A stretch of 40,753 nt of DNA from Bacteroidales bacterium. GTDB taxonomy: Bacteria > Bacteroidota > Bacteroidia > Bacteroidales > VadinHA17. The first letter of the stretch is position 1, and each line of letters begins with the position of its first letter. Made by a program: the position numbers and the translations under genes. Shown piece after piece: positions 1,913 to 40,753 of this stretch. The stretch covers positions 1 to 40,753 of the forward strand of contig JAUVKT010000015.1 of the NCBI GenBank assembly GCA_030596125.1. Direction: 5' to 3'. The notes below the pieces were generated by a model that saw nothing but the letters and a program-made list of their open reading frames with translations, had not been told where the DNA came from and did not search any database.

Positions 1913-4408
1913 CTATTCTTCAACACCCTCCGATATTTCACTTTCTTCATTCTCATCTTCTTCACTTACATCTACTTGTGCCACTGCTGCGATATAATCA
2001 TTATCCCGGAGATTTATTAGCCTAACACCTTGAGTAGCTCTTCCCATTACCCTTAATGAAGAGACCGGAATCCTTAATAATGTCCCTATCCCGGTGATTA
2101 TCATGAGATCGTTATTGTCTGTAACCGCCTTAAGGGCAATAAGTTTACCCGTTTTTTCAGTGATATTGATGGTCTTCACCCCCTTCCCTCCCCTGTTGGT
2201 GATACGATAATCATCTGCTCGTGAGCGCTTTCCGTACCCTTTTTCGGATACAACAAGTACATTTTCTAACCCCTCTTCAATATCAATGGTAACCATACCA
2301 ACCACCTTGTCGCTATCATGACCAAGTCTGATACCCCTTACACCTGAGGCAGTCCTGCCCATTGGTCTTACTGCTGATTCGGGGAACCTGATAGCTCTGC
2401 CCGATTCAACTGCCAGCATAATATAATGGTTGCCGTTGGTCATCCTTGCTTCCAGTAATGTATCTCCATCCCTTACAGTAATTGCATTTACACCGTTTTG
2501 TCTCGGACGTGAATATGCTTCCAGTGAGGTTTTCTTAATAATTCCCTTTGTGGTACTTAAAACAATGAAGTTGTTGTTAATGTATTCCTGATCAGTTAGG
2601 TTTTTTACATTTATGAATGCCATAACCGAATCATCAGGTTCCAGGTTAATGAGGTTCTGCATTGCCCTGCCCTTGGATGTTCTGGCACCTTCTGGAATCT
2701 GATATACCTTAAGCCAAAAACATTTTCCTTTTTTAGTGAAGAACAACATTGTGTTATGCATGGTGGCAATATAGAGGTGTGCAAGGAAATCTTCATCCCT
2801 TGTGGTACTTCCTTTTGCTCCGATCCCTCCCCTGTTCTGTCGCCTGAATTCAGTAAGAGGTGTCCTCTTTATATATCCCATGTGGGAAATGGTTATCACC
2901 ATCTCCTCATCAGCATAAAAATCTTCAGGGTTAAATTCCTCTGCATTAGGTATAATCTCAGTTCTGCGATCATCTCCATACTTCTGTTTAATCTCAATCA
3001 ATTCATCCCTGATGATCTCCATCTGAAGCTCTTCACTGTCGAGAATACTCTTAAGATATTCTATCTGCTTCATAATCTCTTCGAACTCAGCACGCAGCTT
3101 ATCTTGCTCAAGGCCAGTAAGTTGGCGCAGTCTCATTTCAACTATTGCACGTGACTGGATATCTGATAGTTCGAAACGTTCTATAAGTCTTTCACGTGCT
3201 TCGTCCGGGGTCTTTGATGATCTGATTATAGCTATTACTTCATCAATATTATCACTTGCAATGATTAGCCCTTCGAGAATATGCGCCCTTTTTTCTGCCT
3301 GTTGCAGTTCATACCGTGTCCGGCGTAGAACAACTTCATGTCTGTGGTCTACAAAATACCTGATAAGATCTTTTAATATAAGAGTTCTGGGTCTTCCTTT
3401 TACAAGGGCTATGTTGTTGACGCTGAATGATGTCTGTAGCTGTGAATATTTAAACAGGGTGTTCAGAACGACATTGGCTGTTGCATCTTTTTTAAGGATG
3501 ATGACAATCCTCATTCCGGTACGGTCTGATTCGTCATTTATATAGGAGATTCCCTCAATTTTCTTTTCATTGATCTGCTCAGCTATTTTGCGGATCATTT
3601 CTGCCTTATTGACCATATAGGGAATCTCGGTAATTATAATACTTTCCCGCCCCGAGTGGGTTACTTCGATCTCGGTCTTTGACCTTACCACTACCCTTCC
3701 GCGCCCGGTTTCAAAGGCATCTCTGATACCCTGCTCGCCATAAATAATACCTCCTGTAGGAAAGTCAGGTCCCTTGATATGCACCATAAGTTCTTCAGTG
3801 GTGATATCCTTGTTCCCGATATAATCTATTATAGCATCAATAACCTCTCTGAGATTGTGAGGAGGCATATTTGTTGCCATACCAACCGCTATACCGGAGG
3901 CACCATTAAGCAGAAGTGTAGGTATTCTTGCAGGAAGCACCGTAGGCTCTTCCAGTGAATCATCGAAATTAAGCTGAAAATCTACTGTATCCTTTTCGAG
4001 ATCGGCAAGCGTCTCCTCTGCAATTTTCCTTAGCCTGGCCTCGGTATACCTCATTGCAGCCGGACTGTCGCCATCAACTGACCCGAAATTCCCCTGTCCG
4101 TCAACCAGAGGATAACGCAATGACCACGTTTGAGCCATTCTTACCATAGCTTCATAAACAGATGAATCACCATGTGGATGGTACTTACCAAGTACTTCAC
4201 CAACTATTCTTGCTGATTTCTTATGTGACCGGTTTGATAAAATACCTAATTCTGACATTCCGTACAAAACTCTCCTGTGAACAGGTTTCAACCCGTCCCG
4301 CACGTCCGGCAATGCCCTGGAAACAATCACAGACATCGAATAATCGATGTATGCCGACTTCATCTCTTCCTCAATATTGATCTTTAAAATCCTCTCCTGG
4401 TCTGACAT
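1913..4408 (-). CDS. gyrA: DNA gyrase subunit A
   Basis: The 831-residue GyrA is the breakage-reunion subunit of the A2B2 type II topoisomerase that adds negative supercoils. The N-terminal half carries the winged-helix and tower domains, with the catalytic tyrosine Y121 in AAMRYTEAR. The quinolone-resistance region reads [12 protein letters not shown], so S82 and E86 align with E. coli S83 and D87; this looks drug-sensitive. The C-terminal half is the DNA-wrapping beta-pinwheel, with a GyrA-box-like NRGGKG motif that supports gyrase over topoisomerase IV, and an acidic tail. The length is normal for Bacteroidetes. The ATG at 4408 opens the conserved [18 protein letters not shown] hairpin with a T-run lies just upstream in the leader. 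clpC diverges from it. Confidence 0.97.
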
Positions 4409-24787: not shown

Positions 24788-25669
24788 TTACACCCACTGC
24801 TCAGCAACGATTTCGCCTTCAACTCCAACAATAATTTGTTTGATTGGAACTTTGCGCTTTGCTTCAGCAGCAGCAGCCTGAACCATTTGGATCAGCCCCC
24901 CGCAACAAGGCACTTGCATAATGATAACGCTAATAGTATTTACCATTGCATCATCAATCAGTTGTCTGAATTTTTCGATATAGGAATCAGTGTTTGAGTC
25001 TAGTTTTGGACAGGCTATACCCAGGCTTTTACCCTTAAGATAGTCGCTATGGAAGTTACCCATTGAAAATGCCACGCAATCAGCAGCGATAACAAGATCA
25101 GAGTTTCTGAAATATGATGCGCCAGGATTAACAAGGTGCATCTGAACAGGCCATTGTGTTAATTCTGATTTTTGACTTAATGTAGCAGAGCTACAGCCTG
25201 CCTCATTACCTTTTGAAAAACTTCTCTCCTCTGAACCCGGACATCCACATGCTAACTTATACTCTTTATTTTCCATTATATTTTCTCCATTTACTTTTTT
25301 AATTATTTCTGTTACATCAAAATCAATATCTTCTTTATGGCTTAATAAGTATGTCACACCCTCCTTAAGAAATTCATCTTCACCATGATCTTTTAAATGA
25401 GTAAGATGGGCAACAATAACATTCTTACCCTTGCTTACCATATCCTCCATTACTTTGACCTCATCATATGCTTCAGCTTCGCGCTGCTCTATAGAAATTG
25501 CATCCTGTGGGCAATGACCGATACATGCACCCAGTCCATCGCACATCAGATCGCTTACAAGTCTTGCTTTATTATCAATTATCTGTAAAGCACCCTCATG
25601 ACAATTAGGTATACATAATCCACAACCATCACATAAGTCCTCGTCAATCTTTACCATATCCCGCTTCAT
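24788..25669 (-). CDS. Ferredoxin-type iron-sulfur protein
   Basis: A 293-residue cytoplasmic protein with two N-terminal cluster motifs. The first is complete: C13-x2-C16-x2-C19-x3-C23. The second reads C43-x5-C49-x3-C53 with L46 where the second cysteine should be (CDGLGAC), a pattern I recall as typical of this family, and one that would favour a three-cysteine or atypical cluster. The rest has many scattered cysteines, including ACGCPG, a CPK segment and a VPCCGG motif. Start ATG at 25669; an ATG at 25657 (MVKIDEDLCDGC) is also possible. It is divergent from a Crp/Fnr gene with a palindrome in between, so regulation by that protein is likely. Function unknown; electron transfer or redox sensing is inferred. 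Confidence 0.8.
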   Translation of the reverse strand: MKRDMVKIDEDLCDGCGLCIPNCHEGALQIIDNKARLVSDLMCDGLGACIGHCPQDAISIEQREAEAYDEVKVMEDMVSKGKNVIVAHLTHLKDHGEDEFLKEGVTYLLSHKEDIDFDVTEIIKKVNGENIMENKEYKLACGCPGSEERSFSKGNEAGCSSATLSQKSELTQWPVQMHLVNPGASYFRNSDLVIAADCVAFSMGNFHSDYLKGKSLGIACPKLDSNTDSYIEKFRQLIDDAMVNTISVIIMQVPCCGGLIQMVQAAAAEAKRKVPIKQIIVGVEGEIVAEQWV

Positions 25670-25724
25670 AAGTTTACTGTTTTGATTTATGGTACAAAGA
25701 TATTACTGCTTTAACCCTCATACG

Positions 25725-25738
25725 GTAACATATATTAC
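25725..25738. promoter_or_regulatory. Candidate Crp/Fnr-type operator
   Basis: GTAACATATATTAC is a near-perfect inverted repeat (GTAA...TTAC) in the 101-base gap between the ferredoxin gene and the Crp/Fnr gene. It lies about where the -33 element of the regulator's own promoter would be. Confidence 0.45.
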
Positions 25739-25746
25739 AAAATCAC

Positions 25747-25754
25747 TATTTTTG
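25747..25754 (+). promoter_or_regulatory. Candidate -7 element of the Crp/Fnr gene
   Basis: TATTTTTG matches TAnnTTTG 16 bases before the ATG at 25771. The expected -33 TTG is absent; the GTAA palindrome occupies that position. Confidence 0.4.
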
Positions 25755-25770
25755 AAATAAAAACAGAATT

Positions 25771-26439
25771 ATGAATAAGATACTGGTTGAATGTCAATTA
25801 TTCAATGGGCTTAACCCGGATGAGATTAATGATCTGTTATCTTCAATTACTTATCAAACCAGGAAATTCACTAAAGATGAATTGATTGCTCAGGCGGGGA
25901 GTGAAGCACAGGGATTATATATACTATTGCGAGGAAGTGTACGTGGTGAAATGGTTGACTTTTCAGGCAAGGTAATTAAGATTGAAGATATTGAGGTTCC
26001 CCGTATGCTGGCACCTGCCTTCCTCTTTGGTAAAAACAACAGATATCCTGTTGATATTCTGGCAAATAACGATGCAGAACTGATTTTCTTTCATAGTAGC
26101 ACGTTCTTAAGAATTCTTCAGCTCAACCAAAGGGTGCTAATGAATTATCTGAATATCATATCCGACAGGGCTCAGTTTTTATCTGCAAAAATTAAGTTTT
26201 TATCTTTTCACTCCATCAAGGGCAAGTTTGCCAATTATCTCTTTAGTCTGAAAAGACACAATATGGAAAATGATATTCTTCTGCCTTTATCGCAGCTCAA
26301 ACTTGCTGATTTATTCGGAGTTACACGCCCTGCTTTAGGCAGGATAATACGCGAACTACACAATGACAAAATTATTGAGGCCAAAGGCAAAAAAATAGTA
26401 ATACTTGACAAATCCAGGCTTATTCAGTTGATGAAATAA
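25771..26439 (+). CDS. Crp/Fnr-family transcription regulator
   Basis: A 222-residue regulator with an N-terminal cyclic-nucleotide-binding-type beta-barrel (about 10-115), a long dimer helix and a C-terminal winged helix (about 150-215, with LADLFGVTRPALGRIIREL). It lacks the FNR cysteine set, so it does not hold an FNR-type cluster. The recognition helix reads TRPALGR, without the E-x-x-S-R residues of CRP and FNR, so its DNA site should differ from TTGAT-N4-ATCAA. The GTAA palindrome upstream is a reasonable site. The divergent ferredoxin-type gene is the likely target. Heme- or nitrosative-stress sensors such as HcpR belong to this superfamily, but the ligand here is unknown. Confidence 0.88.
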   Translation: MNKILVECQLFNGLNPDEINDLLSSITYQTRKFTKDELIAQAGSEAQGLYILLRGSVRGEMVDFSGKVIKIEDIEVPRMLAPAFLFGKNNRYPVDILANNDAELIFFHSSTFLRILQLNQRVLMNYLNIISDRAQFLSAKIKFLSFHSIKGKFANYLFSLKRHNMENDILLPLSQLKLADLFGVTRPALGRIIRELHNDKIIEAKGKKIVILDKSRLIQLMK

Positions 26440-30298: not shown

Positions 30299-30997
30299 TT
30301 ACCCGAAGCGGGCAATCTGTTCGAGATACTTTTTGTTTAAGATCTCCACCTCTTTCCCATTAATAAGAATGATCTCCTGGGTCTTAAATTGTGTCAGGAT
30401 ACGGCTTGTGCTCTCTTTTGACATACCTGCCAGTTCAGCCAGGTCAGATCTGCTAATGGTAAGGTTAAATGACCTGCTGAAAAATATGTCATTTACCAGG
30501 TAAAGAAGAGCATCAGCAATTCTTGCCTCCATATTTTTATATATCACATTGATCAGCCGATCCGAGAATCGGCTTTGTGCACTGTTATAATGTTTTATAA
30601 GCTTCGGAACATTTTTTTTATCCTTGAGGACGATAGTTTTAAAAGCCTCTATATCTATCAGGCATGCTCTCGATTTGATGACGGCGGCACTCGATCTGAA
30701 AAGCATATCGTCATCAAAAATTGCCGGCATATCCAAAAACTGAAATGGTTTTACCAGTTCAAGAATAAAATTTTTATTGTTATCCCCTTCAATGTAAACC
30801 TTTGCCATACCGTCAAGCAGAAATACAAGATATTTTGATTTTGTGCCCTGTTTGTATATAGTTTCACCTGCCTTAAAATCAACCTCTTTTTTATTTGCAG
30901 TAAGAAATTCATACTCCTTTTCCGTAAGTCCGCCAAAAAAACAACGCGACCTTAATGAACATGCCTTACATTTTAGAACAGGAGTGTAATTCTTCAT
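30299..30997 (-). CDS. fnr: FNR-type oxygen-responsive regulator
   Basis: A 232-residue Crp/Fnr regulator. C10-x2-C13-x5-C19 and C112 match E. coli FNR C20, C23, C29 and C122, each exactly ten residues lower, so an oxygen- or NO-sensitive [4Fe-4S] cluster is likely. The cNMP-type barrel spans about 25-125, followed by the dimer helix. The winged helix carries E195, S198 and R199 (KESTSR), the E-x-x-S-R set that reads TTGAT half-sites in FNR. A near-consensus FNR box lies 24 bases upstream of its start, which points to autoregulation. It diverges from the MBS-like operon and precedes the lipoprotein and TonB receptor genes on its own strand. It is a stronger FNR candidate than the regulator at 25771. 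Confidence 0.9.
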   Translation of the reverse strand: MKNYTPVLKCKACSLRSRCFFGGLTEKEYEFLTANKKEVDFKAGETIYKQGTKSKYLVFLLDGMAKVYIEGDNNKNFILELVKPFQFLDMPAIFDDDMLFRSSAAVIKSRACLIDIEAFKTIVLKDKKNVPKLIKHYNSAQSRFSDRLINVIYKNMEARIADALLYLVNDIFFSRSFNLTISRSDLAELAGMSKESTSRILTQFKTQEIILINGKEVEILNKKYLEQIARFG

Positions 30998-31021: not shown

Positions 31022-31035
31022 TTGAGATATATCAA
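31022..31035. promoter_or_regulatory. FNR box between fnr and the MBS-like operon
   Basis: TTGAGATATATCAA matches TTGAT-N4-ATCAA at 9 of 10 defined positions with the correct spacing. It lies 24 bases before fnr and 70 bases before the first codon of the divergent operon, so one site could serve both. A partial TTGAA...ATCAA pair follows with a longer spacer near 31057. Confidence 0.6.
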
Positions 31036-31105: not shown

Positions 31106-31858
31106 TTGTTTACAAAACTAAATAAATTGAGCAATACCGGTTCAAAATTTGGAATAATAATTAAGAGGGATACTCTATCAAAGGCACCTGTTTCTGCTTT
31201 AACAGGCTGGTTAATACTTGAGTCGAATGATCCGTTTCCCGATTATTACTGTAACGAAGAAAACCCTACAGACAATAGTTGCAAGGAGAATTATTACTAT
31301 CTCCCGGTAAAGCATAACGGGCAATGGGATGACAACCGTTTATGCCGATTCATTCTGGAGATACAAAAAGAGAAATCGGTTAATGTATGTATCGCCACGA
31401 TCGAGATGAACGGTGCTTTATGTCCGGCAATAAGGGTTAAAGGAGTGAAGGCAGAATACCTGAAGGTAGTTGTTGATTTTTTTGTGACAAGAAATGTTTT
31501 TTTTCATAAAAACAGAGATATTAAGAGCTATCTTAGTCTCATTGATACAAAAAGTTTCTTTAATGTAAAGGAGATAGCCCCCGGTATTTTTATGAATCTT
31601 TTTACAGATGGACTATTTTATTTAACAATTGATGAGATGCTTGATTGGAGTCTCTTTGAGAAACTGATAACCTACCAGAAGGGAGGCGGTGGTTTTAAGA
31701 ATTTTGATGGCGCTGTAGGGTATTGGATCGGAGACAGGGAGTATATCGATTTTATCAGGATATTTGGTAACAAACTGACTATAGAACAGCTTCAGGAGAT
31801 TAAACACCAGTTTATAAAAAACCTGTCAGCCTGGCACTCAAATGATTTACTAATATAA
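31106..31858 (+). CDS. Unknown protein leading the MBS-like operon
   Basis: A 250-residue protein of no family I recognise. It has no signal peptide or clear membrane segment. Cysteines are at about 49, 59, 80, 94 and 105, with CNEENPTDNSC in the N-terminal part; the set is not a standard cluster motif. The C-terminal part contains a GGGGFKNFDGAVGYWIGDREYIDF segment. The only plausible starts are TTG at 31106 or CTG at 31100, because no ATG lies near the open end and a stop closes the frame at 31064. The stop is 10 bases before the mrpE-like gene, so it is the first gene of that operon. A regulatory or assembly role is a guess. Confidence 0.7.
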   Translation: MFTKLNKLSNTGSKFGIIIKRDTLSKAPVSALTGWLILESNDPFPDYYCNEENPTDNSCKENYYYLPVKHNGQWDDNRLCRFILEIQKEKSVNVCIATIEMNGALCPAIRVKGVKAEYLKVVVDFFVTRNVFFHKNRDIKSYLSLIDTKSFFNVKEIAPGIFMNLFTDGLFYLTIDEMLDWSLFEKLITYQKGGGGFKNFDGAVGYWIGDREYIDFIRIFGNKLTIEQLQEIKHQFIKNLSAWHSNDLLI

Positions 31859-31868
31859 AATATAGCAT

Positions 31869-32363
31869 ATGAAAATAAAGGCTTTTACAGTAATTTTCAG
31901 CATTCTTATGGCAGTATGGCTGATCCTCAACCAGTCTGTTGATATCGAATATCTGGTTCTGGGTGCTGTAATTTCGGTACTGCTGGCATTTATGTTCTGC
32001 CGGGGATGCAGTGTTTTTAATGATATAAATTTTACTCCGAAGGCATTTGTTTACACTTTCATGTTTCTGGCCGTTTTTATATTTGAACTGATAAAAGCCA
32101 ATTTTGATATTGCCAGAATAGTGTTAACTCCTTCCCTTCCTATTAAACCTGGTATAATCAAGGCTAAAACAAAATTGAAATCGAGGATGGCCCGGCTAAT
32201 ACTTGCCAACTCGATCACACTTACTCCGGGCACTTTTACCATTGATATTATTGATGACACGCTCTATATACATTGTGTGCATTTAGATGATGCCGACAGG
32301 GAGAAACTCGGAAAAAAGATAATTAGAAAATTTGAAAAATATCTGGAGGTAATATATGGTTGA
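31869..32363 (+). CDS. mrpE: MrpE/MnhE-like subunit (Mbx/MBS subunit A)
   Basis: A 164-residue membrane protein with segments at about 5-40 and 57-80, followed by a cytoplasmic domain. The family signature LILANSITLTPGTFTIDI is present at about 110-130. In Mrp antiporters and in MBH/MBS complexes this subunit is part of the sodium-handling module. It starts 10 bases after the unknown lead gene and overlaps the next gene by 8 bases, so it is translationally coupled. The order E-F-G at the start matches the archaeal mbh and mbx/mbs operons rather than the bacterial mrpABCDEFG order. Confidence 0.9.
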   Translation: MKIKAFTVIFSILMAVWLILNQSVDIEYLVLGAVISVLLAFMFCRGCSVFNDINFTPKAFVYTFMFLAVFIFELIKANFDIARIVLTPSLPIKPGIIKAKTKLKSRMARLILANSITLTPGTFTIDIIDDTLYIHCVHLDDADREKLGKKIIRKFEKYLEVIYG

Positions 32364-32616
32364 TATTATTTTAAAAATTTCAATGGTAATCATTGTTTTC
32401 TCATTTCTGCTGGTGGTTATCAGGTTTCTTAGAGGAAACACTGTTCTTGACAGGGTTGTGGCCCTTGATGTTCTAACTGTCAGTTCAATAGGATTGATCG
32501 TACTGCTGGCCGATTCATTTGGCCGGGTTATATATATTGACGTTTCACTGGTCTATGCGATACTTAGCTTTATCGGTGTTATCGTTATTGCAAAATACCT
32601 TGAAAAAAGTTTATAA
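32356..32616 (+). CDS. mrpF: MrpF/MnhF-like subunit (Mbx/MBS subunit B)
   Basis: An 86-residue protein with three membrane segments. The family motif LRGNTVLDRVVALDVL (29-44) is followed by hydrophobic helices to the end. It overlaps the mrpE-like gene by 8 bases and is followed 1 base later by the mrpG-like gene. In MBH/MBS structures MrpF packs with MrpG against the lateral sodium module. Confidence 0.9.
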   Translation: MVDIILKISMVIIVFSFLLVVIRFLRGNTVLDRVVALDVLTVSSIGLIVLLADSFGRVIYIDVSLVYAILSFIGVIVIAKYLEKSL

Positions 32617-32617
32617 A

Positions 32618-32974
32618 ATGGAGTACTTAAAAATTGCAGGTGCATTTATTACACTGGGTGGTTCGCTTTTTATTCTGTTTGCCTCTATCGGATTACTGAG
32701 GATGCCTGATATTTATAACAGAATACAGGCAGGAACAAAAGCCTCTACCCTTGGCACTTTACTTACATTGCTGGGAATCGGGCTGATTCATACCGACTGG
32801 CTTCTTAAGATAATGATGCTTATAATTTTTGTTCTGATCTCAAATCCCGTCTCGTCTCATATTCTGGGACGTGCTGCTCATTATGCCCGGATGCCTATCT
32901 CTGACAGAACAGAGGTGGACGAGCTTGAAGAAGACACCAATATTGTTTCACAGGAGAGAGAGGAGGAAAAATGA
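32618..32974 (+). CDS. mrpG: MrpG/MnhG-like subunit (Mbx/MBS subunit C)
   Basis: A 118-residue protein with three membrane segments. The family motif RMPDIYNRIQAGTKASTLGT lies between the first and second segments. The ATG at 32618 (MEYLKIAGAFITLGG) is chosen because it gives the normal family start, rather than an upstream ATG within mrpF. The C-terminal tail is charged (about 95-118). It overlaps the next gene by 4 bases (ATGA), implying coupled translation. Confidence 0.9.
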   Translation: MEYLKIAGAFITLGGSLFILFASIGLLRMPDIYNRIQAGTKASTLGTLLTLLGIGLIHTDWLLKIMMLIIFVLISNPVSSHILGRAAHYARMPISDRTEVDELEEDTNIVSQEREEEK

Positions 32975-33222
32975 TCTATTCAATAATTGTACTTATACTG
33001 TCGTTAATAATGCTTGTAATGGCTCTTGTAGCCATTCACCACAAAAGCTTGCAGATAGCCGTCATTGCATCAGGAATCATAAGCCTTTTCGCTTCGGTTG
33101 TATATATATTTCTGGCTGCGCCTGATGTAGCTATTACAGAAGCCTCAATCGGAAGTGCCCTGACGGTGATTATTTTCTTTTATGTACTAAATAAAATACG
33201 TCATAGTGATGCTAAGGAATAG
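32971..33222 (+). CDS. MbhD-like subunit (MrpA C-terminal type, DUF4040)
   Basis: An 83-residue protein with three membrane helices. It contains APDVAITEASIGSALTVIIFF, the signature of the MbhD/DUF4040 domain that in bacterial Mrp is fused to the C-terminus of MrpA. As a separate gene here it follows the archaeal MBH/MBS plan. It overlaps the mrpG-like gene by 4 bases and the next gene by 14 bases. Confidence 0.88.
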   Translation: MIYSIIVLILSLIMLVMALVAIHHKSLQIAVIASGIISLFASVVYIFLAAPDVAITEASIGSALTVIIFFYVLNKIRHSDAKE

Positions 33223-33916
33223 TTTAAGAGTTATAATAATAGCGGCTCTCGGCTGGATATTATTCCAGGTGTATTCAGGCTATAGCAGTCGTGATGAGCT
33301 AAACGAACTTGCTGGTTACTATGCCACAGAAGGACTTTCCGAAGTTGGCGCAGCAAACCTGGTAACATCTGTTGTTGTTACCTACCGGGGTCTGGATACT
33401 CTCGGAGAGGTCACAATTCTCTTTCTTACAGCTCTTATTATCGGATTAATGCTTAAGGCTGAACACAGGGGTGACAGAACCAGATTAAGGGAATCCAGTG
33501 AATTCCTGGTCACTGCGTCACATGTGCTGCTTCCGGTGATCTTCATGGTTGGTGTTTATATATTTATTAACGGACACCTCACCCCCGGTGGTGGTTTCCA
33601 GGGCGGTGCAATACTTGCATCTACGCTTATTCTTATGCTTCTCTCATTTACTAATAGTAAGATCAGTCATAAGGTGCTTGAAATCACTGAATCTGTTTCC
33701 GGGATATCATTTATTGTTCTTGGCATATTGGGAGTAATTCTCGCAGGCGGCTTTCTTGATAATAAGATATTACCGCTTGGCGAGTTCGGAAAACTATTCA
33801 GTGCCGGAGCAATTCCTGTTATCTACAGCTTTATCGGGCTGAAGGTAGGGGCTGAACTATCAACTATAATTTTAGAGTTTAATCAAATACAGGGAACAGA
33901 TGACAAATCTCTTTAG
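33209..33916 (+). CDS. MbhE-MrpB (MnhB) fusion subunit
   Basis: A 235-residue membrane protein of two parts. Residues about 1-85 are MbhE-like, with the GLDTLGEVTILFLTALI motif of the MrpA C-terminal region. Residues about 95-225 are the MnhB domain, with INGHLTPGGGFQGGAILAST. The ATG at 33209 is preferred over GTG at 33206. In Pyrococcus MBH these are separate MbhE and MbhF proteins. It overlaps the previous gene by 14 bases and the mrpC-like gene by 17 bases. Confidence 0.87.
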   Translation: MLRNSLRVIIIAALGWILFQVYSGYSSRDELNELAGYYATEGLSEVGAANLVTSVVVTYRGLDTLGEVTILFLTALIIGLMLKAEHRGDRTRLRESSEFLVTASHVLLPVIFMVGVYIFINGHLTPGGGFQGGAILASTLILMLLSFTNSKISHKVLEITESVSGISFIVLGILGVILAGGFLDNKILPLGEFGKLFSAGAIPVIYSFIGLKVGAELSTIILEFNQIQGTDDKSL

Positions 33917-34274
33917 CATAGAATATATAACTATTTTTACAAGCTTTGCCCTCCTTGTATTGGGGCTCTGGGGGATTATTTCCCAGAAGAATATCTTTAA
34001 GATCATAATAAGTTTCAGCATTGTAAACACAAGTATTCACCTACTGCTTGTTTCTCTTGCATATATCAGGAATCGTACTGCCCCTATCATAGACTCTGCT
34101 GTTGACAGGGTGAATGCAGCAGAGAAAGTTGTCGATCCTGTACCTCACGCATTGGTTCTTACCGCAATCGTTATTGGTATTGGTATTACCGCTCTGATGC
34201 TCAGCTATGCATTTACAATGTATAAACAACATAAAACTCTGGATATAAATCAATACAAATCACTAAAATGGTAA
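33900..34274 (+). CDS. mrpC: MrpC/MnhC-like subunit (NuoK-type, MBS subunit G)
   Basis: A 124-residue, three-helix membrane protein. The conserved VDPVPHALVLTAIVIGIGITALMLS segment (about 79-103) is typical of MnhC and its relative NuoK. It overlaps both neighbours (17 and 7 bases). In MBH/MBS it links the antiporter-like subunit to the rest of the membrane arm. Confidence 0.9.
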   Translation: MTNLFSIEYITIFTSFALLVLGLWGIISQKNIFKIIISFSIVNTSIHLLLVSLAYIRNRTAPIIDSAVDRVNAAEKVVDPVPHALVLTAIVIGIGITALMLSYAFTMYKQHKTLDINQYKSLKW

Positions 34275-37200
34275 GTCCGATATATATAATAGCCATTCTC
34301 CTGGGAATGGCATTCATGCTTGGCCTGTTGAGTAAGTCAGGAACCCGGATTGCCGGGATACTCACCTCTGTAAGCCTGGCCCTGCCGGTCTATATTTCAA
34401 TAAGCTGGTTTATACAGATCTTATCCGGAAATGCCGATGCAATAACGATTTTTACTGCCGGTTCTGTGCCTCCGTTCTCCATAAACCTTGTTATGGGGCT
34501 TGAGGAGGCCTTTTTCACATCTGCAATTAATATACTTGGCCTGCTTGGATTTATCTACCTCTCAGCCGATCTTAAGAAGCAAGGAGTAAGGGCAATGGCT
34601 CTGTATCTTGTTCTTATAATGGGTCTTAATGTGGTTGTGATGACGCGTGATATCTTTAACCTGTTTGTCTTTATGGAGATAGTAACCATAGCTGTAGCAG
34701 GTCTTATATATTTAAAAAACGACAATCAATCAAAAGAGGCTGGTTTTAAATATCTGGTAGCTGTTGGTATTATATCATTATTCTTTCTTATTGGAATAGG
34801 CTTTTTCTACTTCTATGGCGGAACATTGAACATTGATGGATTTATAGCAGCAAACAGTGTTGTCGTAAAAGGTGCTACCATTGCGATATTCTTTATTATA
34901 ATTTCAATTATTCTTGAATTAAAACCGTTTCCGGCAAACGGATGGGCTCTTGATGTTTACCAGGCTGCCACTCCGGGGGTAAGTGCTCTTATTTCCTCAG
35001 GTACTGCAACTGCTTCAATTTTTGTACTTTATAAGCTTCTTCCGCTTGGGTCAGAAATTTGGTTACAGATACTGACTGTGGTAGGCGCTGTTACATTCCT
35101 GGGATCCAATTTTCTTGGTATTTCACAAAAGAACACCAACAGGCTGCTTGGATATTCATCAATCGGCCAGGTTGGATTATTGATGATGGTAATCGGTTTT
35201 ATGCCTCAGCTTGGGTCAGCTTTCAAGATGATATTTTTCTCTGTTTTTATTAGTCATTTCCTGGCAAAGGCAGGTCTGTTCTGGCTTTCAGGGATCGTTA
35301 AGAAAGAGAGTATAACTGACTGGGGTATTCTCAGAGGAAGTAACATAGCACTCTTCTTGTTTGGGATATTCCTGTTTGCTCTGGTCGGCTTCCCTCCCTT
35401 TCCTTCATTCTACGGTAAATGGCAGATGGTGATGGAACTGGCAGGTACCGGCCGGTTTATATGGATCGTAATTATACTCCTGGGTTCGTTCTTTGAAGGT
35501 CTCTACCTTTTCAGATGGCTCGGATATGCAATTAAGGGAGAAAAGAGTAATGAAGAGAAATTGCAGATCCCATGGGATAAAATAGTTCCTCCTTTCATTT
35601 TCGGCATTTCCCTGTTTATAGCTGCATATTATGCAAACAGCATGTCTGTTTACGGGAATACAATCAATCTGATACCTCTGGTTTTTATTTTACTTCTTTT
35701 TGTTATTGATTTTCTTCCTGCCTATATCAAGAATACAATCACTATCGGGGCAATGGTATATTATGCAGTTAATCTCTATCCATCCATTTCCGATGATACC
35801 CTGAGGGTTGTGTTTGCAGCTATCTTTCTCATTGGTGGTATTCTTACCATGATTGCAGGTTATTCGGTAAAGGGTAAGAGAAAGGGATTCTTCCCGTTTG
35901 CTGTAATGATGTACTTCGGCTTGATCGGACTTATAGAAGCTGAGAATCTTTTTCAATTCTTCTTTGCCTGGGAACTGATGACCCTTGGTTCATATATACT
36001 TATTATTAGAGGTAAATTCAGTATGAAGCATGCTTTCAACTATATGCTTTTCTCACTTGGTGGAGCTTATCTGATTTTCCTTGGCATTGCTATGTCATCA
36101 TTTGGTAACACCTCTCTTGATATCGGTATTATCGGACTAAGCACAATGCCCGGCTGGAGTTATACACTCCTTGCAATTGGTTTTCTTACCAAGACAGCTG
36201 CACTTGGTCTGCATATATGGCTGCCGGGAGCACATGCTGAAGCTGAATCGGATGTATCCCCGATGGTGTCCGGTATATTGCTAAAGGGTGGTGTATTCGG
36301 ATTAATTGTTCTATTTCTGGCTATGGGAGGAGAGCAGGCAGCAAGTCACCCGTTGCTCTATTCATTAGGCTGGCTTGGAGCAATAACTGCACTCGGGGGA
36401 AACCTCCTTGCAGTTTTTCAGGAAGATGCAAAGAGGTTGCTAGCCTATTCAAGTGTTGCTAACCTTGGCTATATACTTTTCGCTCTTGCCTTTATGACTA
36501 ACATTGGCTGGCTTTCCGCACTTACCTACTCCATCAACCACTTTCTGTTCAAAACATTGCTCTTCCTTGCAATCGGTGGTGTGGTTTTAAGAGTTAAAAC
36601 TCATAATATGTACGAGATGGGCGGACTGATAAAACAGATGCCATGGAGTTTTATAGCCGTTCTGATAGGTATAATAACACTGGCCGGAATTCCTCCCCTT
36701 TCAGGTTATGCAGGCAAATGGTTGTTTTATAATGCTGTAATAACAAAGGGATGGTATTTTCAGGGTGTACTTGTTTTCTTTGCCGGTACAATAGCATTTC
36801 TATACTGTTTTAAGTTGATCTATTCTGTCTTTCTGGGACAGCCTAAAGACAGGTTCAGAAAGGTAAAAGAGGCTCCTATATGGTATTTAATACCACAGTT
36901 TATTCTTATTATAGGCATAATGATCTTTTCAGCCCGTCCCGACCTGGTTCTTAAACCAATCGGAGCATTGCTGACACAGAGCAGTTACTTTCCATCCGAT
37001 TCGTTGAGTTGGGAGAATGTAACAGCATCAACCAATCTTGGGTACTGGAGTGGTTATAAGATCATGTTGGTAATCGGTGTCATGTTTGCAGTACTGCTTG
37101 TCTGGCTTATGTATATGAGCAGAAAGACACAGAAGGTAAAGCAATTTAATATTGTATATGCGGGTGAAAGACCGTTCACACCTGAAACAACACACTTCTC

Positions 37201-37396
37201 ACATAATATGTTCTCACATTACTATAAGGCATTAGGCTTCCTCTCGGCACCTCTTGCTACAAGGTTCTGGAATATAACAAATGATATTACACATAGAATT
37301 GCTGATGGTTCGAAACGGCTTTATACCGGTAACGGACAAACTTATTTAGCTGTAATAATGGCTTATATCATCATTATTTACCTGATAATGTTTTAA
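34268..37396 (+). CDS. Fused double antiporter subunit (MBS H-H' type, MrpD/NuoL-like)
   Basis: A 1042-residue membrane protein made of two MrpD/NuoL/M/N-type antiporter domains in tandem. Domain 1 (about 1-480) has E137, K219, H330 and K384. Domain 2 (about 490-890) has E569, K642, K673, H758 and K817. The position 31 residues after K219, where domain 2 has K673, is S250, so domain 1 seems to lack the TM8 lysine; K256 may or may not substitute. A C-terminal extension (about 930-1042) has two more membrane segments around a cytoplasmic loop. In Pyrococcus Mbx/MBS the two domains are separate subunits H and H'. No frameshift or internal stop is seen, so the fusion looks real. It starts 7 bases inside the mrpC-like gene. 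Confidence 0.88.
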   Translation: MVSPIYIIAILLGMAFMLGLLSKSGTRIAGILTSVSLALPVYISISWFIQILSGNADAITIFTAGSVPPFSINLVMGLEEAFFTSAINILGLLGFIYLSADLKKQGVRAMALYLVLIMGLNVVVMTRDIFNLFVFMEIVTIAVAGLIYLKNDNQSKEAGFKYLVAVGIISLFFLIGIGFFYFYGGTLNIDGFIAANSVVVKGATIAIFFIIISIILELKPFPANGWALDVYQAATPGVSALISSGTATASIFVLYKLLPLGSEIWLQILTVVGAVTFLGSNFLGISQKNTNRLLGYSSIGQVGLLMMVIGFMPQLGSAFKMIFFSVFISHFLAKAGLFWLSGIVKKESITDWGILRGSNIALFLFGIFLFALVGFPPFPSFYGKWQMVMELAGTGRFIWIVIILLGSFFEGLYLFRWLGYAIKGEKSNEEKLQIPWDKIVPPFIFGISLFIAAYYANSMSVYGNTINLIPLVFILLLFVIDFLPAYIKNTITIGAMVYYAVNLYPSISDDTLRVVFAAIFLIGGILTMIAGYSVKGKRKGFFPFAVMMYFGLIGLIEAENLFQFFFAWELMTLGSYILIIRGKFSMKHAFNYMLFSLGGAYLIFLGIAMSSFGNTSLDIGIIGLSTMPGWSYTLLAIGFLTKTAALGLHIWLPGAHAEAESDVSPMVSGILLKGGVFGLIVLFLAMGGEQAASHPLLYSLGWLGAITALGGNLLAVFQEDAKRLLAYSSVANLGYILFALAFMTNIGWLSALTYSINHFLFKTLLFLAIGGVVLRVKTHNMYEMGGLIKQMPWSFIAVLIGIITLAGIPPLSGYAGKWLFYNAVITKGWYFQGVLVFFAGTIAFLYCFKLIYSVFLGQPKDRFRKVKEAPIWYLIPQFILIIGIMIFSARPDLVLKPIGALLTQSSYFPSDSLSWENVTASTNLGYWSGYKIMLVIGVMFAVLLVWLMYMSRKTQKVKQFNIVYAGERPFTPETTHFSHNMFSHYYKALGFLSAPLATRFWNITNDITHRIADGSKRLYTGNGQTYLAVIMAYIIIIYLIMF

Positions 37397-37399
37397 AAG

Positions 37400-38308
37400 A
37401 TGGAATTAGTTAAAAAAATAGGATTTGTACTTCTTGGTCTCTTTATTATCCTGAACTGGGGATTGATAATGTCAGGAATCATCAGGAAGATCATTGCCAG
37501 GCTGGGAATGCGCAGAGGTATCAAGGTTTTCCAGCCCTATATTAACCTGATTAAAAACTACAGTATCAGATCGCAGATATCACATGGAGTGATGTTTTAT
37601 CTTGGTCCTGTTTTCAGGCTCTCCGGGGGAATTGGAATATTTCTCTTTATGCCATTGATACATGGTTCAGAGCTGTGGAGCAATTTCTCCTTTACTGGCG
37701 ACCTTATCCTGATTGCCTACTTCGCGTTTTTTGGCATGCTTGGGATGGCTCTTGGAGCCGGTGAAGGGGGTCACCCCTACTCTGCAATCGGGATCTCCCG
37801 TGGTCTTGCACAGTTTACAGCTATTGAACTGCCGCTTACACTTGCAATTATTTCAATAGCAATACAATATAATACTCTCTCAATTTCTGAAATTGTGGCA
37901 GCACAGCAGGGCGGTATTCAAAACTGGACGCTTGTAACCAACCCATTTGCAACCGTTGCAGCGATGATCTCATTTCTTGGCGCAATGGGACACTCTCCTT
38001 TCAGTGTGGTAATGGCACCGCAGGAAATTCCTATTGGTCCTCCCACAGAATACCATGGTACTTTTCTTGGTATTTTGCAGACCAACAGGGCTATTTTGCA
38101 TGTAATAGAAGCTGTTTTGTATATGAACCTGTTCTTTGGTGGCGCCACCAATTGGGGTATTCTTATCTTAAAATCATTCCTGGTCTATTTCTGGTCGGTA
38201 TTTGTAGGAATGGTATTTCCGCGTTTCAGGGTTGATCAATCAATCCCGTGGTTACTTAAACTACCTGTGTTAATTGGAATAATAGCTATTGCATTGCTGA
38301 TTATTTAA
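37400..38308 (+). CDS. NuoH-like membrane subunit (MbhM/MbxM type)
   Basis: A 302-residue protein with about eight membrane helices, related to complex I NuoH and to MbhM, EchB and HycD. It has the characteristic segments GAGEGGHPYSAIGISRGLAQ and SPFSVVMAPQEIPIGPPTEYHGT; the second corresponds to the conserved acidic loop facing the quinone or redox site. It anchors the hydrophilic arm to the membrane. It begins 3 bases after the double antiporter gene and is followed by the NuoB-like gene 10 bases later. The M-J-K-L order is that of mbx/mbs rather than of mbh, in which M comes last but one. Confidence 0.88.
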   Translation: MELVKKIGFVLLGLFIILNWGLIMSGIIRKIIARLGMRRGIKVFQPYINLIKNYSIRSQISHGVMFYLGPVFRLSGGIGIFLFMPLIHGSELWSNFSFTGDLILIAYFAFFGMLGMALGAGEGGHPYSAIGISRGLAQFTAIELPLTLAIISIAIQYNTLSISEIVAAQQGGIQNWTLVTNPFATVAAMISFLGAMGHSPFSVVMAPQEIPIGPPTEYHGTFLGILQTNRAILHVIEAVLYMNLFFGGATNWGILILKSFLVYFWSVFVGMVFPRFRVDQSIPWLLKLPVLIGIIAIALLII

Positions 38309-38318
38309 TAATTAAGAG

Positions 38319-39017
38319 ATGTCTTTATCAAACAAGAACGAACAAGAAAAAAATATCAGGGTTACGGAGGATAAGTTCCTGGCACCTGAGAACCGGAAAC
38401 ATACTGTTATCGGCCCCGGGGGTGAAGAGATTTTTGTAGATCCTCTGAACGACTATTTCTGTACCGAGAAACCAAAGGTGGAAAAACCCTACAAAGGAAT
38501 CCTTGAGAAATTTTATAACTGGGCCAGGGCAGAATCCCTATGGGTGCTTGGTTATGGAACAGGGTGCGGCAGTATAGAACTGCCCCCGCTATTCTCACCC
38601 CGCTTTGATGCATACAGGTTTGGTGTGGCAATGAGACCCACTCCAAGACAGTCAGGTGTGTTTATTATATCGGGTTACCTTGCGGTTAAGACTCTTAAAA
38701 GGGTAATAAGGAGTTATGAACAGATGCAAAATCCAAAGTATGTAATAGCTCTTGGCAGTTGCACCATCAATGGCGGAATGTACTGGGATAGCTATAATAC
38801 AATTAACAGGCTCGATCATTATATTCCCGTTGATGTTTATATAGCCGGTTGTATGCCCCGTCCTGAAGCAATCCTCTCCGGATTTAACAGGCTTAAGGAG
38901 AAGATAAAAGAGGGAAGAGCCGAAGGTGCTAATGAATATATTGAAAAGCTTGAATGGTATAAGGCCAACCAGAAAAAGATTATTAAAGATTGGAATATGC
39001 CTGATTATAACTGGTAA
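38319..39017 (+). CDS. NuoB-like subunit (MbhJ/MbxJ type) lacking one cluster cysteine
   Basis: A 232-residue homologue of complex I NuoB and hydrogenase small subunits, which carries the cluster nearest the active site. After a hydrophilic N-terminal extension (about 1-60) the core begins at WVLGYGTGCGSIELPP. NuoB normally has adjacent cysteines here; only C83 is present and the next residue is G84 (codon GGC). The other ligands C148 (ALGSCTINGG) and C178 (IAGCMPRPEA) are conserved. A [3Fe-4S] cluster, a non-cysteine ligand, or C48 from the extension are possible. The gene is 10 bases after the NuoH-like gene. Confidence 0.87.
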   Translation: MSLSNKNEQEKNIRVTEDKFLAPENRKHTVIGPGGEEIFVDPLNDYFCTEKPKVEKPYKGILEKFYNWARAESLWVLGYGTGCGSIELPPLFSPRFDAYRFGVAMRPTPRQSGVFIISGYLAVKTLKRVIRSYEQMQNPKYVIALGSCTINGGMYWDSYNTINRLDHYIPVDVYIAGCMPRPEAILSGFNRLKEKIKEGRAEGANEYIEKLEWYKANQKKIIKDWNMPDYNW

Positions 39018-39029
39018 AAACGATATAGT

Positions 39030-39557
39030 ATGAGCGAATTATTAAAACAATTAAAAGACCAGTATAAAATTTTTGATATTACGGAGGTTAAGTCATTCCA
39101 GACTTTCTTTTCCGTTGATACTGCAAAATTATTACCACTGGTAACATCTTTAAAGGAGAACAGTGGTTATACAGTTTTAGTTTTCATTACGGCTGTCGAC
39201 TGGCTCGAAGAGGATAAATTCCAGCTTACCTATATTGTAAATAATCCTGAGGAGAAGGTTGATCTGGGTATCAGGGTGTTTTTTAAAAGAGATGAACCGA
39301 CAATGGAATCGATTCATCATCTGTGGGTACATGCTGCGACATTTCAGCGCGAAATAAAGGAAATGTACGGAATAGACTTTCCTGGTAGTCCTCGTGTTGA
39401 TGAACCATTCCTTCTTGAAGGATGGGATGACATTCCGCCAATGCGCCGCGATTTTGACACTAAAAAATACTCCGAGGAGACATTTTTCCCAAGGGAGGGA
39501 CGTGAATCAAATGATCCTGCAACATTTATGAAATTAAAGCTTTATCCTGATGAATAG
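39030..39557 (+). CDS. NuoC-like subunit (30-kDa type, MbhK/MbxK)
   Basis: A 175-residue soluble subunit. The family segment is visible as HHLWVHAATFQREIKEMYGIDF (about 95-116), matching the ERExxDxFGI pattern of 30-kDa subunits, followed by the proline-rich MRRDFDTKKYS. It has no cofactor motif; its role is to brace the NuoB- and NuoD-like subunits. Its stop overlaps the NuoD-like start by 8 bases. Confidence 0.87.
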   Translation: MSELLKQLKDQYKIFDITEVKSFQTFFSVDTAKLLPLVTSLKENSGYTVLVFITAVDWLEEDKFQLTYIVNNPEEKVDLGIRVFFKRDEPTMESIHHLWVHAATFQREIKEMYGIDFPGSPRVDEPFLLEGWDDIPPMRRDFDTKKYSEETFFPREGRESNDPATFMKLKLYPDE

Positions 39558-40749
39558 TAATCGTGGAAACATATTTAAACGGAAGCCTGACAGAACAATT
39601 TTCCCGGAAATGGGTGATAATGGAAAACCGGTAGTTGACCTCGACTCACAGAAATTTATTAAGATATGGCAGGGACCAAATCACCCGGGTGTAACAGGTA
39701 ATATGTCACTCGAACTTACCATAAGTGGTGATGAAGTTATGGATGCTAAAACACATGTAGGTTACCTTCACCGTGGCTTTGAGAAGCTTTTTGAACGTAG
39801 AAAATATATACAGTGTTTTCCAACGTGTATCAGGATGTGTGTACCCGAACCGGATACCAATGAATATAATCTAGCGAGAGGAGTTGAGGAACTCACAGGA
39901 ATAGAGGTGCCTGAGATGGCAAACTGGTTGAGAATGATTGTTCTTGAAATGGCCAGGCTACAGGTCCTGCTCAGAATGGTTCCCGGACAGGCAGGTACAA
40001 TGGGTCTTGGGTTAGGCTCAACATGGGGTCTCTATTACAGGGAACTGATTCTTGACCGGCTGGAAGAACTGACTGGTGGCAGAATCTATCATATGTATAT
40101 TCTTCCAGGAGGAGTAAGAGGGCTTCTGCCTGATGGATTTAAGGAAAGACTTGAGGATAACCTTGTTAAGATTGAAGGTTTTATTAAGGATATCGACAGG
40201 CTTATCTATTCCAATGCCGTATTTAAGAAGAGAACAAAAGGGATTGGTTTTATACCTTCAGACTGGGTAGATAATTATGGGATTACTGGTCCTGTTGCCC
40301 GGGCTGCAGGCTATAAAAGGGATGTAAGAAAAGATTACCCATATCTCTATTATGACAGGCTGGATTTTGATTATAATATCGGGCACGAATCGGATGTATT
40401 TGCAAGGTTCCTTGTTCGCAGAAAGGACCTGGATACAACCGTCGATCTTCTGAGGCAGATCATGGCAAAGATGCCCGGGAAGGGTGATATAAAAGCAGAA
40501 ACACCTAATGTTCTGCATTGGAAAGTTCCTAAAGGTGAAACAGTAGTACGTTGCGAAAGCAGTCGTGGTGAATACAGTTTCTATATGGTCTCTGACGGCT
40601 CGGAATACCCCAGGCGTATTAACCTCAGGGGACCAAGTTATTCCCATGCTGTTACATTGCTTGAAAAGTTACTGATAAATGAAAATATATCAGACGTTTC
40701 GGCAATTATGATATCACTTGCTACCTGTCCGCCGGAAATTGAGAGATGA
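39550..40749 (+). CDS. NuoD-like subunit (MbxL type), without a [NiFe] site
   Basis: A 399-residue homologue of complex I NuoD and the large subunit of group 4 [NiFe] hydrogenases. The N-terminal part has GPNHPGVTGNMSLEL and YLHRGFEKLFERRKY. A hydrogenase needs two CxxC motifs; instead it has C89-x3-C93-x3-C97 near the N-terminus and a single C393 in SLATCPPEIER at the C-terminus. NiFe binding is therefore not supported, but the cysteines exceed those of NuoD, so it belongs with the Mbx/MBS or related non-hydrogenase types. The protein is full length, ending at a TGA four bases before the window edge. Confidence 0.88.
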   Translation: MNSNRGNIFKRKPDRTIFPEMGDNGKPVVDLDSQKFIKIWQGPNHPGVTGNMSLELTISGDEVMDAKTHVGYLHRGFEKLFERRKYIQCFPTCIRMCVPEPDTNEYNLARGVEELTGIEVPEMANWLRMIVLEMARLQVLLRMVPGQAGTMGLGLGSTWGLYYRELILDRLEELTGGRIYHMYILPGGVRGLLPDGFKERLEDNLVKIEGFIKDIDRLIYSNAVFKKRTKGIGFIPSDWVDNYGITGPVARAAGYKRDVRKDYPYLYYDRLDFDYNIGHESDVFARFLVRRKDLDTTVDLLRQIMAKMPGKGDIKAETPNVLHWKVPKGETVVRCESSRGEYSFYMVSDGSEYPRRINLRGPSYSHAVTLLEKLLINENISDVSAIMISLATCPPEIER

Positions 40750-40753
40750 GGGG
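40746..40753 (+). CDS. Start of a further operon gene (truncated by window end)
   Basis: ATGAGGGG at the very end overlaps the TGA of the NuoD-like gene by the common ATGA arrangement. In mbx/mbs operons the next gene is a NuoI-like subunit with two [4Fe-4S] clusters (MbxN). Only two codons are visible, so the identity is inferred from gene order. Confidence 0.3.

Follow-up and report, generated by a model that had tools for sequence, protein, structure and literature searches.

The DNA analyzed here, hereafter called the window, is a stretch of 40,753 nucleotides (nt) from a metagenome-assembled genome (MAG) of a Bacteroidales bacterium (contig JAUVKT010000015.1). The 3' quarter of the window is filled by an operon of 11 genes on the + strand (31869-40749, with intergenic gaps between -17 and +12 nt), which encodes a complex of the MBX/MBS type, related to the MBS of Pyrococcus furiosus (formerly MBX; PDB entry 6u8y), and which continues on a second contig with a subunit fused to a flavoprotein module. 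Profile searches with Pfam and NCBIfam provide family support for every gene of the operon, a composition for which chance is excluded. Many of the NCBIfam scores do not reach the curated cut-offs for equivalogs, which is what a divergent relative would be expected to show.

The first gene encodes an MbxA/MrpE-like subunit of Na+/H+ antiporter type (31869-32363; TIGR00942, 5.1e-34, below cut-off) and is followed by genes for MbxB/MrpF-like (32356-32616; NF009250, 5.2e-23, below cut-off), MbxC/MrpG-like (32618-32974; TIGR01300, 1.3e-25, above cut-off, and PF03334) and MbxD/MbhD-like proteins (32971-33222; PF13244, 3.5e-18). The subsequent MbxE-type gene (33206-33916) carries the MbhE and MnhB/MrpB domains (PF20501 and PF04039) in a single chain, a trait of MBS, whereas MBH has two genes. 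After an MbxG/MrpC-like gene (33900-34274; NF005621, 4e-21, and further MrpC models, all below cut-offs) comes a fused open reading frame (ORF) of 1042 amino acids (34268-37396), which joins MbsH and MbsH', two pumps of MrpD/NuoN/NuoM type, and includes the C-terminal extension of MbsH'; the top PDB match of its halves is 6u8y (chains H and X; 7.1e-58 and 1.2e-47). The operon is completed by the MbxM/NuoH-like membrane anchor (37400-38308) and by MbxJ/NuoB-like (38319-39017), MbxK/NuoC-like (39030-39557; PF00329, 3.1e-25) and MbxL/NuoD-like (39550-40749) proteins, hereafter abbreviated as M, J, K and L. The best PDB match of M (6u8y_M, 1.7e-39), J (4.2e-64) and L (5.8e-87) is again P. furiosus MBS.

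A preliminary description of this DNA had recognized the whole set, from MrpE-like to NuoD-like genes, as one tight operon, and all these genes are indeed found on the + strand. Its "double MrpD" holds for the two pump units but not for two genes, since both lie in a single ORF, and its MbhE/MrpB gene is one protein with both domains. Of the interval that it assigned to the operon (31106-40753), the part from 31869 stands, while the first 763 bases (31106-31868) are mostly occupied by an ORF of 250 codons without family match. It likened the gene order to the mbx/mbs cluster of Pyrococcus, and the table in PMC2678158 indeed lists PF1453 to PF1444 in this order.

The N subunit and its fused flavoprotein module

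The window ends 4 nt after the L gene. The gene that comes after L in a relative (locus L004) was compared with the genome of the window and led to contig C75 (3470 nt), the first 141 bases of which are identical to positions 40613-40753 of the window (+ strand). Between this overlap and the next gene lie 126 nt that consist partly of simple repeats; short repeats of the aaggcataaggcagaaggc type occupy C75 138-263, between L and N, and probably explain why the contig breaks here. The gene that follows (C75 264-2057) encodes a protein of 597 amino acids, hereafter N, in which a NuoI-like N-terminus precedes an FAD/NAD(P) module like that of NfnL, the large subunit of NADH-dependent ferredoxin:NADP+ oxidoreductase. 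The NuoI-like gene that the preliminary description sought past position 40753 is therefore present, although as a fusion with NfnL, so that the predicted ferredoxin-linked oxidoreductase was half of the picture: the N subunit exists but is joined to an NfnL-type module.

The N-terminal part of N, with the cysteines for two [4Fe-4S] clusters of NuoI type, matches chain N of P. furiosus MBS (6u8y_N, 2e-24), whereas the top PDB matches of the protein are the NfnL structures 5jca (1.7e-71) and then 4ylf (5.7e-69), with which the C-terminal 440 residues share two [4Fe-4S] sites and the FAD and NAD(P) domains. The homologue in L004 contains the Pfam domains Fer4_20 and Pyr_redox_2 and reaches 882.8 bits with PRK13984, as compared with 886.7 for N of the window genome, both below the cut-off of 946. 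A fold search with the model of the L004 protein also returned NfnL first; since this model has a mean predicted local distance difference test (pLDDT) of 66.9 and residues 1-148 lie below 50, the NfnL-like part alone was used. The difference from P. furiosus is clear, MbsN having 208 amino acids and no such module, and N is thus not a small stand-alone subunit fed by ferredoxin, which weakens identity with P. furiosus MBS but not the assignment to the MBX type. Unlike NfnL, the module stands behind a NuoI-like domain, and no gene of NfnS type was seen with it, either in the operon of the window or on C75.

To compare this arrangement among relatives, contigs were scanned by L and the best 80 of 96 relatives were kept; all counts out of 80 refer to these loci. 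An N gene lies 3' of L in every one of them, starting at most 664 nt away, with a small ORF in between in L010, L014 and L079. The protein exceeds 500 amino acids in 73 of the 80, the seven short ones being either cut by the contig end (six) or broken off early within the contig (L053). The fusion, recognized by Fer4_20 or by FAD motifs, is visible in 78 loci, the sequences of L006 and L059 being too short for a call. All 74 N proteins longer than 500 amino acids (73 loci plus that of the window genome) share 17 invariant cysteines, which would be enough to ligate four clusters plus one over. Eight more operons, retrieved via other genomes (L147-L154), likewise have L followed by NuoI-like and GltD/NfnL-like matches, and in six of them the DHODH-like gene described below is present. 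The genome of Thermotoga maritima encodes a PRK13984 protein above cut-off, presumably TM1217 next to its mbx genes, and hence this kind of input also exists outside the group of the window.

The NAD(P) site of N occurs in two kinds. The YRR...MPA motif is found in 49 of the 80 loci (29 of type 1 and 20 of type 2, as defined below), and an xLE motif in 25, all of type 1 and including the near relatives of the window, the remaining six being cut or broken; N of the window genome is of the xLE kind. Replacement of the arginines that bind the 2'-phosphate by an acidic residue points to NAD(H) in Rossmann folds, and NADH-dependent glutamate synthase (GOGAT) has a similar change. The loss of YRR, another difference from NfnL, and the presence of xLE suggest that NAD(H) is favored over NADP(H) in the clade of the window. 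In L011 (9357-12359), L belongs to the window clade but N carries YRR, possibly by gene exchange within the operon. The portion of the literature searched, outside which lie the reviews of Schut et al., holds no description of the N-NfnL fusion or of these Bacteroidota operons, and this does not amount to their absence from print.

Relatives, phylogeny and residue signatures

The closest loci belong to Bacteroidales MAGs, in agreement with the Bacteroidetes host proposed earlier. The titles of the 80 loci, which may be wrong for MAGs, cover Bacteroidota, Chlorobiota/Ignavibacteriota, Spirochaetota, Cloacimonadota, Neomarinimicrobiota (Fidelibacterota) and Delongbacteria, as well as Acidobacteriota, Aminicenantes, Caldisericota and two Pseudomonadota. 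The latter two (L025, Celeribacter sp. HF31, and L028, a Gammaproteobacteria MAG) come from genomes that also hold a NuoD with the His and Tyr of the quinone site, and the operon in these records would reflect transfer or contamination. Despite the number of MAG loci, the operon seems to be rare in the window's class, for an N of PRK13984 type (E <= 1e-150) is found in two of 295 genomes, one of them the window's own, at a limit below which type 2 N proteins may fall.

Where the contig extends for 8300 nt or more ahead of L (54 loci), the complete set of 11 genes in the order E-F-G-D-B-C-H-H'-M-J-K-L is present in 53; in the sole exception, L020, gene D was not detected. Two types can be distinguished, which were assigned by locus number from identity and agree with the L tree for the rows it contains. 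Type 1, to which the window belongs, has an L of about 400 amino acids and H plus H' in one ORF of more than 850 amino acids (44 of 44 assessable loci), whereas type 2 has an L of about 374 amino acids and separate H and H' (20 of 20); seven further loci are partial and nine lack a match for the H-H' gene.

Phylogenetic trees, which took in part of the 80 loci and in which P. furiosus MbsL and MbsJ are the only named MBS rows, place the complex on the MBS side. In the L tree (71 rows), the window, the operon rows and MbsL group together with support of 100/100, apart from both complex I (nine rows, 99/94) and [NiFe] hydrogenases (four rows, 100/100). The J tree (56 rows) unites 45 operon rows with MbsJ (99/97), MbsJ not lying outside all of them, and recovers the [NiFe] group with 98/97 and complex I more weakly (89/75). 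Thermotoga and Thermoanaerobacter Mbx are absent from the rows, and four Ehr-like rows were aligned but did not enter the tree. Ehr-like proteins, which resemble the large subunit but have no [NiFe] L1 motif, occur in four host genomes (L129, L130, L131 and L132). The trees requested by the preliminary description thus join its NuoD- and NuoB-like subunits to MBS, and neither falls inside true [NiFe] hydrogenases or complex I; together with gene order, this bears out its call of an Mbx/MBS-type complex.

The residues of the active site follow the same division. At the positions of Nqo4 His38 and Tyr87, the proposed binders of the quinone head, L has Thr and Val in all 80 loci (T49 and V98 in the window), identical to MbsL in the alignment. 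The second cysteine of each [NiFe] pair (MbhL C71 and C377) is replaced by Glu in 80/80 and in the window (C97/E100 and C393/E396). The position of MbhL Glu21 has Gly in 79 loci and Glu in one, which is weak evidence because the column is shifted, MbsL itself having Glu. In J, all 75 loci that cover the site show the motif GTGCG, the counterpart of CC in complex I and of CxxC in [NiFe] hydrogenases, so that three ligand cysteines remain at the proximal cluster; C83, C148 and C178 are kept in 75/75, 76/76 and 76/77 covering loci (77 loci have J), while G80 stands where MbsJ has C25. This three-cysteine proximal cluster resembles that of MBS, in which one iron site is open, and its coordination is predicted by analogy with MBS.

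Pump residues were compared in the fused proteins. Glu138 of the H half is retained in 44 of 45, the last having a gap there, and a Lys in transmembrane helix (TM) 7 in all 45; the stretch compared does not reach His330. The H' half retains Glu128 in 45/45 and Lys248 in 44/45, whereas the column of His336 has Tyr in the window and His four residues on in 45/45, where the numbering may be off by four.

Gene neighborhood and host genome

Upstream of the operon, 10 nt 5' of mrpE, lies the ORF of 250 amino acids mentioned above (31106-31858, + strand), which has no match in Pfam or NCBIfam but has a tblastn homologue at the same position in L003, L004, L005, L006 and L008. Distant homologues (19% identity) follow the DHODH-like gene in L003 (14020-14730) and L007 (8189-8896). 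This ORF is a probable lineage-specific companion of the operon, present 5' of mrpE in the closest Bacteroidales. Foldseek returned no match at E <= 0.001 for its model (pLDDT 81.6), and the best VIA-align hit (Z 6.2 over 77 residues) was not counted as a relationship.

The divergent neighbor of the operon is a regulator of FNR/CRP type (30299-30997, - strand; Pfam HTH_Crp_2 and cNMP_binding) with cysteines C10, C13, C19 and C112, the first three in a CX2CX5C arrangement. An FNR-like gene is divergent 5' of mrpE in 12 relatives (L003, L004, L005, L006, L008, L013, L016, L019, L020, L047, L052 and L079), all with Bacteroidota titles, and CX2CX5C is present in 10 of these. A candidate FNR box (TTGAN6TCAA) at 31022-31035 was rejected, as it is absent from the equivalent gap in 12/12 relatives and the two matches in the window are about as many as chance would give (mean 1.77). 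Elsewhere in the window (24788-26439), a ferredoxin-domain protein of 293 amino acids (Pfam) is divergent from a second ORF that looks CRP/FNR-like.

Downstream of N, C75 carries a dihydroorotate dehydrogenase (DHODH)-like gene (2086-3069), the L004 homologue of which is PRK07565. Such a gene directly follows N in 19 of the 62 loci whose contig continues for 2500 nt or more past L, and also in L023, the contig of which is slightly shorter; in some other loci the place after N is taken by a CBS-like gene (by resemblance to the L012 protein) or by a rubrerythrin/ferritin-like gene (Pfam, L024 and L060). The DHODH-like family recurs beside flavoproteins of NfnL type, as in contig C8 (6550-10083; L093), where NfnAB-like genes precede it, and, by look, in L080. 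No hyp gene follows the operon as far as the end of C75, 0.4 kb past the DHODH-like gene, the search having been for HypD.

The MAG (2.70 Mb, 165 contigs, 96.29% complete) contains one NuoD-like gene, the L of the operon, and no second was found. HypD was not found in a search of the MAG either, which, with the absence of the [NiFe] cysteine pairs, upholds the earlier proposal of an acceptor other than protons. No NuoEFG input module was recognized on reading the ORFs of the window and C75. The MAG also has an rnf cluster (RnfC by Pfam; RnfB, D, G, E and A by look and order), matches of [FeFe]-hydrogenase type at four places, and molybdopterin proteins, with NuoEF-like ORFs that by look adjoin these and the [FeFe]-hydrogenase genes, besides the NfnAB-like genes of C8 with their following DHODH-like gene. 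The host looks like an anaerobic fermenter that has several routes for keeping ferredoxin, NAD(P)H and H2 in balance.

Proposed function of the complex

The interpretation that we favor, with a confidence of about one half, is that the operon encodes an ion-pumping, NAD(P)H-dependent sulfane-sulfur reductase of MBS/MBX type, perhaps dependent also on ferredoxin. The FAD in the NfnL-like part of N would receive electrons from NAD(P)H, and reduced ferredoxin may dock on N as a further donor. Four [4Fe-4S] clusters of N would then carry the electrons on to J, whose proximal cluster is held by three cysteine ligands. A sulfane-sulfur substrate such as polysulfide would be reduced in the hydrophobic chamber formed by J, L and M, and this reaction would power the membrane arm, comprising the fused MbsH and MbsH' pumps and the Mrp-type Na+/H+ module. 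What the sequence shows is the composition and order of the operon, its placement beside MBS, the loss of quinone and [NiFe] residues, the three cysteines in J and, in N, the 17 invariant cysteines and the FAD/NAD(P) domains; the clusters themselves, the course of the electrons, the substrate, the ion and the docking of ferredoxin are predictions. Sulfane sulfur is the leading candidate for the acceptor because the proximal cluster is of MBS type. Isolate names that point to sulfidic habitats were judged too weak an argument to be used. The argument draws on homology with P. furiosus MBS, which reduces sulfane sulfur at an open cluster (PMC7684303), on the conservation of the site across loci, and on the MBX of T. 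maritima, a 13-subunit complex induced by elemental sulfur (S0) and called an MBS homologue, whose mbxA transcription rises 4.36-fold on S0 according to PMC9431562. Resemblance to P. furiosus MBS thus extends from the gene order, the Mrp-type arm with two MrpD-like pumps and the fused MbhE-MnhB to the proximal cysteines, the Thr/Val pair and the side of the L and J trees, and the T. maritima genome shares with ours a protein of PRK13984 type.

Several points weigh against this proposal. The acceptor is extrapolated to the present organism from sequence, and NADH to polysulfide would, judging from the redox potentials, probably yield little energy for pumping. K has as its top PDB match the C/D subunit of an NADH-quinone oxidoreductase (7q5y_B, 3.2e-12), with MBS K second (6u8y_K, 6.9e-12). 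MbsL C85 is kept in 60 of the 80 loci (Ala or Thr in 20) and C385 in 43 (Tyr in 37), although both are reported as dispensable in MBS (PMC7684303). Lys250 in TM8 of MbsH is conserved in 0/45, so that the first pump may work differently; this loss, the fusion of H with H' in type 1 and Gly for C25 of J set the complex apart from that of P. furiosus. The MBS rows are single long branches in both trees and long branches meet (MbsL, MbhL, HycE and others), which leaves the inner branching order unsure. Finally, genes of PF02621 (MqnA/MqnD type) make a quinone possible on genome grounds.

The strongest competitor, to which we would give about half the credence of our preferred scheme, is an ion-pumping ferredoxin:NAD(P)+ oxidoreductase, in which electrons would run from reduced ferredoxin via N and its NfnL-type FAD to NAD(P)+, the role first proposed for Pyrococcus Mbx. 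It accounts for the fusion of the module with the subunit on which ferredoxin docks, visible in all N proteins of sufficient length, as for NfnL being the closest solved relative of the module, and older papers name Mbx a ferredoxin:NADP oxidoreductase (PMC3608648; PMC4596419). However, it has no need for the J cluster and chamber, the residues of which are nevertheless invariant; the MAG already has Rnf, a ferredoxin:NAD+ system, and NfnAB-like genes; and P. furiosus MBS was later found to reduce sulfane sulfur (PMC7684303).

An enzyme with the same open proximal cluster and either donor, NAD(P)H or ferredoxin, but another acceptor, such as an organic disulfide, the persulfide of a sulfur-carrier protein or some unknown compound, appears rather unlikely. 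Such an acceptor would be compatible with the missing residues of the quinone site and the missing [NiFe] cysteines, and the hosts span Bacteroidota, Spirochaetota, Cloacimonadota and others, yet the one characterized relative known to have this type of cluster reduces sulfane sulfur (PMC7684303).

We consider it improbable that the complex is a complex-I-like NAD(P)H:menaquinone oxidoreductase with a swapped input module. The complex-I-like fold and the input of pyridine-nucleotide type would suit such a function, as would the PF02621 genes at two places in the MAG. Against it stand Thr/Val for His38/Tyr87 in every locus and the absence of the CC motif from all 75 J proteins covering it. PF16582, the middle domain of MenD, was not found in the search of the MAG, and T. 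maritima likewise matches PF02621, which is by itself no proof of quinone synthesis.

Equally small is the chance we allow for electron bifurcation, whereby the NfnL-type FAD of N would split the electrons of NAD(P)H, sending the one of low potential along the clusters to the ion-pumping MBS core and the one of high potential to another flavoprotein as partner. The DHODH-like protein encoded beside N in many loci is the candidate for this partner; if true, flavin-based bifurcation would be wired straight into an ion pump of complex I type. A group 4 [NiFe] hydrogenase of MBH type, finally, is already contradicted by sequence and can be practically dismissed, for the ancestral J/K/L/M core shared with P. 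furiosus MBH and E. coli formate hydrogenlyase, and the Mrp-type arm shared with MBH, are outweighed by the replaced cysteine of each pair, the missing HypD and the separate sides of the trees (100/100).

MBS, known mainly from hyperthermophilic archaea and a few thermophilic bacteria, has been considered an evolutionary intermediate between hydrogenases and complex I. Our results extend an MBS core with invariant active-site letters to Bacteroidota, Spirochaetota, Cloacimonadota, Ignavibacteriota and other lineages, where it is accompanied by its own flavoprotein of NAD(P)H type in all loci of sufficient completeness. The N-NfnL fusion offers an exact target for the question of the electron acceptor and partner, and the natural electron partner is now testable. 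If the flavoprotein input is used, these bacteria would possess a complex-I-like enzyme that takes in pyridine nucleotide, pumps ions and delivers electrons to a non-quinone acceptor, with an NAD(P)H module unrelated to NuoEFG.

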